A DNA stretch of 64,000 nucleotides from Clostridia bacterium (GTDB taxonomy: Bacteria; Bacillota; Clostridia; UMGS1840; HGM11507), in the NCBI GenBank assembly GCA_017554615.1, contig JAFZHY010000015.1, positions 1-64,000 on the forward strand, written 5' to 3'. The first letter of the stretch is position 1. Every line of letters starts with the position of its first letter. The position numbers and the translations under genes were made by a program. The notes under the pieces were generated by a model that was not told where the DNA came from, made no database searches, and saw nothing but the letters and a program-made list of their open reading frames with translations. This document shows, piece by piece, positions 47,814-48,516 of the stretch.

Positions 47814-47842
47814 ATTTTAACACAAAAAAATAAAAAAGTCAA
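47814..47842 (-). promoter_or_regulatory. predicted promoter of lexA
   Basis: On the minus strand TTGACT (47837-47842) and TAAAAT (47814-47819) are 17 bp apart, with an extended -10 TG. LexA box 1 covers part of the -35. Confidence 0.8.
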
Positions 47843-47853
47843 ACAAATGTTCG
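47840..47853. promoter_or_regulatory. LexA box 1
   Basis: CAAACAAATGTTCG matches the Firmicutes box CGAACN4GTTCG except at one position. It overlaps the lexA -35 element. Confidence 0.85.
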
Positions 47854-47862
47854 AAAAAAGTG

Positions 47863-47891
47863 TTGACAAAAACATTTGTTCGATTTATAAT
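47863..47891 (+). promoter_or_regulatory. predicted promoter of the yneA-like gene
   Basis: Consensus TTGACA (47863-47868) and TATAAT (47886-47891) are 17 bp apart. LexA box 2 occupies the spacer. Confidence 0.92.
47869..47882. promoter_or_regulatory. LexA box 2
   Basis: AAAACATTTGTTCG matches the box at 12 of 14 positions and lies between -35 and -10 of the yneA-like promoter. Confidence 0.8.
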
Positions 47892-47903
47892 ACAAATAAC
47901 AGT

Positions 47904-47917
47904 CGAACAAATGTTCA
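47904..47917. promoter_or_regulatory. LexA box 3
   Basis: CGAACAAATGTTCA matches 13 of 14 positions and lies just downstream of the predicted transcription start of the yneA-like gene. Confidence 0.88.
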
Positions 47918-47935
47918 TAAGAAAGGATGATATAA

Positions 47936-48226
47936 ATGAAAAAAATAGTAATAAAAAACAAATTCAGATTTATAGTATTTTTGCTTGTAATGTTCACATT
48001 GGTATCTTTATTATGTGTATCAGTATTTAATTTAGGAAAAGTTTATTCCAAAACAACTAACGAATATATTACCTATTATGTGGCAAGCGGAGATACTCTA
48101 TGGGAAATTGCTCAGGAATATAATGTAAAAAATGTTGATACAAGAAAATTTATAAATGAAATTAAAACTGTAAATAATATCGGCTCTAATTTATATATAG
48201 GGCAAGAAATCATAATTCCACAATAA
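47936..48226 (+). CDS. YneA-like SOS cell-division inhibitor (membrane anchor plus LysM)
   Basis: This 96-aa protein has one transmembrane segment (~12-33) and a LysM domain (YYVASGDTLWEIAQEYNV through LYIGQEIIIP). Size, topology and its place divergent from lexA match YneA of B. subtilis, which delays division during DNA damage. Two LexA boxes lie in or next to its promoter, so strong SOS control is expected. The start follows AGAAAGGA. The yneB and ynzC genes that often follow yneA are absent; a hairpin array comes next instead. Confidence 0.88.
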   Translation: MKKIVIKNKFRFIVFLLVMFTLVSLLCVSVFNLGKVYSKTTNEYITYYVASGDTLWEIAQEYNVKNVDTRKFINEIKTVNNIGSNLYIGQEIIIPQ

Positions 48227-48240
48227 AAAAACCTTGCATA

Positions 48241-48268
48241 GAGGCACCCTCCTTAAGGAAGGTGCCTC
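48241..48268. repeat. dispersed hairpin element, copy 2
   Basis: A 28-base palindrome: GAGGCACC (48241-48248) pairs with GGTGCCTC (48261-48268), with a central TCCTT/AAGGA stem and one internal C-A mismatch. It shares its layout with 41791-41814. No T run follows, so it is not a standard terminator for the yneA-like gene. Confidence 0.65.
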
Positions 48269-48269
48269 A

Positions 48270-48442
48270 GTTATATTCGCCAAAGGCGAGTTATATTACT
48301 TTGTAGTGATATGATGCTACGCATCGTGATATTGTCCTTCGGACAGTTTTGGAGGCGAATATAATATCACTGAAACTGCAAGTTTCAATATCACTTTGCC
48401 CACAGGCAAAATATCACTGTGAGACCTGTCTCACAATATCAC
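48270..48442. repeat. array of seven short hairpins with conserved 7-bp spacers
   Basis: Modules with unrelated stems alternate with a fixed spacer. Left half: spacers GTTATAT (48270, 48290) and GTGATAT (48306, 48326) with hairpins TCGCC-aaa-GGCGA (48277-48289), TAC-ttt-GTA (48297-48305), GATGC-tac-GCATC (48313-48325) and TGTCC-ttc-GGACA (48333-48345). Right half: spacer ATATCAC, the reverse complement of GTGATAT, at 48364, 48388, 48411 and 48436, with hairpins TGAAACT-gca-AGTTTCA (48371-48387), TTTGCC-caca-GGCAAA (48395-48410) and TGTGAGAC-ct-GTCTCACA (48418-48435). TTATATTCGCC (48271-48281) is also repeated inverted at 48354-48364. No coding sequence is visible. Function unknown. Confidence 0.9.
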
Positions 48443-48516
48443 TTATTATTCATATCTTTGAGATTGGTTAATTTTAAAGTGTGTAACCCATAGTTTGTTA
48501 GAATTTCGTGAGGTTA

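Follow-up and report, generated by a model that had tools for sequence, protein, structure and literature searches.

Genomic setting and layout of the array

The window is a stretch of 64,000 nucleotides of a Clostridia bacterium genome (contig JAFZHY010000015.1), in which an array of short hairpins is flanked by a small LysM-domain gene and malQ (Pfam), the two genes converging upon it. The LysM gene and lexA diverge from each other, in agreement with the initial annotation, which had placed the array between convergent genes after an SOS-type gene. Within the lexA/LysM intergenic region (47840–47920) visual reading showed repeated GAACAnnTGTTC-like sites, such as LexA boxes would give; the small LysM gene beside lexA looks YneA-like.

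Seven short hairpins can be read from the sequence, four in a left half and three in a right half, the halves being inverted about a centre (Table 1). Left spacers have the consensus GTKATAT and right spacers read ATATCAC. TTATATTCGCC, at 48271–48281, recurs inverted at 48354–48364. This layout of seven hairpins with constant spacers, inverted about its centre, had been proposed beforehand and was confirmed; folding of the block gave z = −7.0 against shuffles as RNA of the + strand and z = −8.5 as DNA of the − strand. What the earlier description had overlooked was an outer hairpin, a split terminator and a shared loop apex, C-GN(N)A-G. The real extent is thus greater than 48270–48442, adding the outer left-end hairpin, a degraded right tail reaching approximately 48507 and flanking half-terminators. 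Alignment with other copies of the element described below showed a homologue of this left-end hairpin in 16 of them and indicated that the window copy, which is of the GAGGC type, has lost its right-end hairpin.

Table 1. Features of the hairpin array and its flanks, in positions of the window
Feature	Position	Strand	Basis
Putative left half of split terminator: A-run and stem arm (AATAAAAAAACCTTGCAT), arm 48230–48237	48222–48239	+	predicted fold
Outer left-end hairpin GAGGCACCCTCCTTAAGGAAGGTGCCTC	48241–48268	+	arms 93% complementary
Rfam RF01706 Gut-1 match	48268–48337	+	56.2 bits, gathering 50, E 2.3e-10
Left spacers GTTATAT	48270, 48290	+	sequence
Left module 1, TCGCC-aaa-GGCGA	48277–48289	+	sequence
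Left module 2, TAC-ttt-GTA	48297–48305	+	sequence
Left spacers GTGATAT	48306, 48326	+	sequence
Left module 3, GATGC-tac-GCATC	48313–48325	+	sequence; near-identical module at C5, same genome
Left module 4, TGTCC-ttc-GGACA	48333–48345	+	sequence
Centre: GGCGAATATAA (inverse of 48271–48281) and first ATATCAC spacer	48346–48370	+	conserved in aligned copies
Right spacers ATATCAC	48364, 48388, 48411, 48436	+	sequence
Right module 1, TGAAACT-gca-AGTTTCA	48371–48387	+	sequence
Right half, weak inverted Gut-1 match	48383–48460	−	30.4 bits, below gathering, E 0.0008
Right module 2, TTTGCC-caca-GGCAAA	48395–48410	+	sequence; similar stem in C25 copy, same genome
Right module 3, TGTGAGA-cctg-TCTCACA	48418–48435	+	sequence; similar stem in C25 copy, same genome
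Degraded right tail; GTGTGTAACCCATAG aligns with TATGTAACCCACTATG of complete copies	48443–48507	+	alignment
Putative right half of split terminator (GTGAGGTT), then T-rich stretch into malQ 3' end	48508–48515	+	fold

Relationship to the Gut-1 family

The initial annotation knew of no named element with this layout and had set a match to a named family as the finding that would tell against it. Such a match exists: the left half scores above the gathering threshold of Rfam family RF01706 (Gut-1), the sole Rfam match at that threshold across the whole window, and the right half matches the same model on the − strand with a score below it. The element to which the array belongs is called the Gut-1 element here; its spacer occurs in the variants GTGATAT, GTGAAAT, GATGAAAT and GCGATAT.

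Gut-1 was described in 2010 by Weinberg et al. from human-gut metagenomes only, and that paper rates it as a certain RNA that is not cis-regulatory and is most likely an expressed non-coding RNA (PMC2864571). A literature search of partial coverage returned no other paper that mentions RF01706, and none on the Gut-1 element or on elements in terminator loops. Were Gut-1 a genuine small-RNA gene, the array would be its transcript; this is how Rfam types the family, the left half passes the gathering score, and the published rating points the same way. Mismatches in sense-strand stems (14 G.U against 7 A.C) lean in this direction in numbers too few to decide, and selection on the RNA strand through G.U pairs was set aside as an explanation on that account. 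Against a small-RNA gene stand the many copies per genome with changing stems, the inverted second half absent from the Rfam model, the patchy presence across the class and the scarcity of promoter-like sites, with one in the window region and more in shuffles. A small-RNA gene is accordingly considered quite unlikely; Gut-1 is probably not an RNA gene but the already catalogued half of a DNA insert.

Copies, distribution and anatomy

The genome of the window holds 33 Gut-1 matches (E up to 1) at approximately 23 loci, including pairs in opposite orientation. Beyond it, at least 115 stretches in genome contigs match a single module pattern, nearly all of them in metagenome-assembled genomes (MAGs) of gut Clostridia; this wider sample was gathered with one module and its genomes are mostly MAGs. 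One match lies in Ruminococcus bromii 5AMG, where Gut-1 scores 59.1 bits and adjoins a tRNA-Arg gene, so that Gut-1 is now tied to genomes that include a named strain. A sample of the class yielded Gut-1 in 29 of 391 genomes and 21 of 222 genera at E 1e-10, and in a phylum-wide sample (n = 398, E 1e-12) only the window's own genome was positive. Viral contigs gave 0 matches to one module pattern, and a phage origin was rejected on that result. The prediction of a distinct multi-copy family with constant spacers and varying stems was thus borne out in this genome and in many other gut Clostridia, and among the roles first proposed a growing repeat family fits best.

A complete copy of the mRNA type measures approximately 300–350 bp. 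Alignment resolves it into a left-end hairpin, a left arm of mini-hairpins spaced by GTGATAT, the centre GGCGAATAnAATATCAC, a right arm in inverted orientation and a right end that is also structured. Measured from the left end of complete copies, the centre is at approximately 115–117 bp and the right-end motif at approximately 310–345 bp. Copies are up to 95% identical over approximately 370 bp despite unrelated flanks, and the sequence outside the ends of aligned copies is unrelated between them; dispersal in many copies whose ends are fixed and whose flanks are unrelated is also a feature of miniature inverted-repeat transposable elements (MITEs). In the loci examined, left and right ends occurred only at fixed spacing, and an autonomous version was rejected for these loci.

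Several variants were seen in passing. Right ends of the GGCGTG-type element (L067, L078, L079, L081) carry extra small hairpins (GCATTTGTTTnACAAATGC, GGGCTATGCCC) with constant linkers of their own. One module in the left arm of L148 is far longer than usual (TCTTTTGGAATACCTCGTCGAAGACGAGATATTTCCAAAAGA) and is possibly an expanded hairpin. A recurring sequence, roughly GTTCGATAAATnnGAATTTG, downstream of several arrays (L073, L096, L200) may be another repeat family.

Proposed insertion in terminator loops

Two kinds of site are occupied: the loop of a gene's Rho-independent terminator, or the position directly after tRNA and tmRNA genes. Copies of the mRNA type are flanked on the left by an A-run and a stem arm, and on the right by the complementary arm and a T-run. 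The arms vary from locus to locus yet match in cis, which places the element in the loop of a gene-specific terminator. For 14 copies, chosen by end motifs only, the mean duplex energy of the flanks was −21.1 kcal/mol in cis against −8.5 kcal/mol in trans; the cis partner ranked first for 11 and second for the remaining 3, and 0 of 20,000 permutations were as good. With the right flank taken more broadly and all 57 copies of the mRNA type included, incomplete copies diluted the signal and the cis partner came first in 20. Terminator arms split by the insert yet still able to pair are what would be predicted if terminators serve as landing sites.

Folding predicts that the stem of the terminator can form again across the element in nearly all of 29 copies. 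It does so for the window copy too, where 48230–48237 pairs with 48508–48515 over 8 bp by MFE as well as by centroid prediction. By duplex energy the window flanks are undistinctive relative to other loci (rank 40 of 57) and the terminator halves are degenerate, so that a split terminator at the window copy is weakly indicated by this copy alone and strongly by the family. Shuffling the interior made no difference to predicted stem formation (native against shuffled, p = 0.27). A need for the array in keeping the stem forming was rejected on that result, and equilibrium folding gives no support to the idea that termination depends on the array.

Relatives carry plain terminators at orthologous sites, as expected of the empty sites of a MITE. 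At one locus the element is present in G025, and in its place G021, G024, G026 and G027 have plain terminators whose stems are related. Four sites that hold the element in the window's genome (G000) are plain terminators in G001, of the same genus, namely C5, C22:15.7k, C13:24.9k and C13:70.1k (loci L233, L245, L239 and L242). Insertion events can be placed only approximately, since the own-genus comparisons are at 76–87% identity and the comparison with several congeners is confined to one locus; orthologues found at the protein level are too distant to show empty sites base by base. The g203 locus (L205/L208), with a left arm conserved in G027 but in an ambiguous context, was left out of the filled/empty count, and C26, with a plain terminator in G003 but an ambiguous state in G001, was left out of the four sites. 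That every relative has lost the element is conceivable but less economical than gain, which is argued from few sites.

At the orthologue of the window site in G001 (L246), an IS3-type end stands in the element's place. The IS3-type left end (TGAAGTGAACCCCAAAGTTTAGAC) follows shortly after A-rich gene 3' ends there (the malQ orthologue) and at L247 of the same genome, each case lying where a contig stops. The sites taken by the Gut-1 element may therefore also be open to insertion sequences.

The 3'-end location also suits a host function. Extended terminators or insulators domesticated by the host, with the array kept for better 3'-end formation or RNA stability, especially between convergent genes, would fit this location; in G000, convergent ORFs flank 8 of the 14 non-tRNA copies inspected. 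The inverted halves make the array alike in both directions, and flanking stems still pair at many loci. Congeners, however, manage with plain terminators at the same sites, and the distribution is patchy; we regard domestication as unlikely. The transcript 3'-end role suggested in the initial annotation is right as to where copies sit, but the 3' ends are read here as the target of the element.

Copies at tRNA and tmRNA genes

Many copies lie directly downstream of tRNA or tmRNA genes. Their left end is a terminator of their own (A-run, hairpin, T-run), followed by the array. Different tRNA genes are accompanied by identical terminator sequences, for example GCATCGACTTTGTCGGTGC in L049, L053 and L061, from which the terminator appears to be part of the tRNA-type unit. 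A second terminator is often present on the right (L042, L060 and L062, by eye). As these copies begin directly after the terminator T-run, there is no room for a promoter outside the hairpin, a further argument against a small-RNA gene. Tandem pairs of tRNA-type units, with one terminator each, were noted at L045, L047 and L058.

Module stems and the loop apex

A total of 199 distinct modules was collected across the gathered loci after removal of the search-biased TGCn3-4GCA. An end-to-end stem of at least 4 bp is present in 83% of them compared with 3.7% after shuffling; these counts are descriptive, since related copies are not independent. The initial annotation had called the stems unrelated, and they do vary; the modules are nevertheless not wholly unrelated, as most of the family shares the apex C-GN(N)A-G when read on the ATATCAC strand. 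Approximately nine of ten modules are closed by a C-G pair, and most loops read G..A on that strand and T..C on the opposite one. Of the array hairpins 53% carry the motif or its complement, compared with 5% of background hairpins of the same contigs; among parsed modules, the motif is found in 57% of those in right arms and its complement in 62% of those in left arms. Within the window only the modules at 48313–48325 and 48333–48345 fit fully, as the complement, and the GCA loop at 48371–48387 is closed by T-A.

When a G-C pair closes a GNA or GNNA loop, the DNA mini-hairpin is known to be extra stable (PMC4686876). That the loop type follows the orientation of the spacer suggests an oriented DNA unit more readily than a transcript. 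Pairing without conserved sequence, combined with a constant DNA mini-hairpin apex, raises the question of whether structure is selected or palindromes repair themselves from their own template. Under the second alternative, quasipalindrome-templated repair or template switching at single-stranded hairpins would rewrite imperfect stems as perfect ones while their sequence drifts, and pairing would be kept by mutation. The very large number of distinct, near-perfectly paired stems is consistent with this, and hairpins with the extra-stable apex should form readily in single-stranded DNA (PMC4686876); the dispersal and the terminator location are left unexplained by it. Templated repair is a possibility we hold tentatively, and it can act alongside the explanation preferred below.

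Probable mobility of the Gut-1 element

Copies are dispersed and structured, terminators are split in cis, relatives have plain terminators at the orthologous sites, many copies adjoin tRNA genes, and the apex motif is shared. The best explanation of these observations is a non-autonomous interspersed element that inserts at intrinsic transcription terminators, of which the window array is an eroded copy; we place the probability of this reading at roughly 0.72. Copies would arise by transposition of the whole unit. The mRNA type would land in the loop of a terminator, whose flanking stem halves could still pair, and the tRNA type would bring its own terminator beside tRNA or tmRNA genes. In both cases the host gene would keep a potential terminator, allowing spread with little harm, and tolerance would be due to surviving termination. 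The folded single-stranded form of the DNA probably matters. More speculatively, the target may be chosen by structure: a folded terminator hairpin would be recognised, probably as single-stranded DNA, and its loop entered by an element itself composed of extra-stable DNA mini-hairpins, the host terminator staying usable and the element nearly harmless. On the preferred reading, intrinsic terminators would offer small mobile DNA a safe place to land in gut Clostridia. No autonomous copy or linked transposase was present in the loci examined, and no clear target-site duplication was visible by eye in the junctions inspected.

Mobilisation as a REP/BIME-like system by a REP-associated Y1 (HUH) transposase would account for small hairpins, a conserved foot sequence, inverted pairs and intergenic mosaics, all as in REPINs and BIMEs. 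Y1_Tnp (PF01797) was not found in G000 (98.7% complete) or in the carriers G008, G021, G025 and G026, and is present in several genomes without Gut-1 matches; stems, moreover, differ both within the window array and between copies of the window's genome. Mobilisation of this kind was rejected on the absence of Y1_Tnp from several carriers and is regarded as highly improbable.

Comparison with known systems

The Gut-1 half is already named in Rfam, and there are precedents both for palindromic elements that are small and non-autonomous and for insertion sequences that target palindromes (PMC1525189). Group IIC introns prefer intrinsic terminators as insertion sites, as is proposed for the Gut-1 element. 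They insert after the stem, however, and are ribozymes with a reverse transcriptase, for which the Gut-1 element is too short and non-coding.

REPs, BIMEs and REPINs (PMC2817692, PMC3116915) are likewise intergenic, palindromic, mosaic and multi-copy, with inverted units. In REPs the stem sequence is the signature of the family, whereas in the Gut-1 element the spacer and loop apex are conserved and the stems vary. Insertion sequences that target REP palindromes provide a precedent for DNA palindromes as targets of mobile DNA (PMC1525189); those are autonomous elements entering REPs, whereas here a non-coding element is found in intrinsic-terminator loops of many unrelated genes. BOX, RUP and other bacterial repeats of the MITE type (PMC3049150, PMC2229807) are similarly short, non-coding, structured and dispersed. 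The Gut-1 element differs from them in being a serial hairpin array associated with terminators, and neither a parent transposon nor a duplication was found in the loci inspected.

With RF01706 itself, the three hairpins of the model and their GUGAAAU spacers correspond to the left arm of the element. An orphan non-coding RNA family of 2010 thereby receives a different reading: what Rfam lists as a 77-nt sRNA gene is here half of an inverted, dispersed DNA element, to which are added a right arm, end hairpins and terminator-associated sites.
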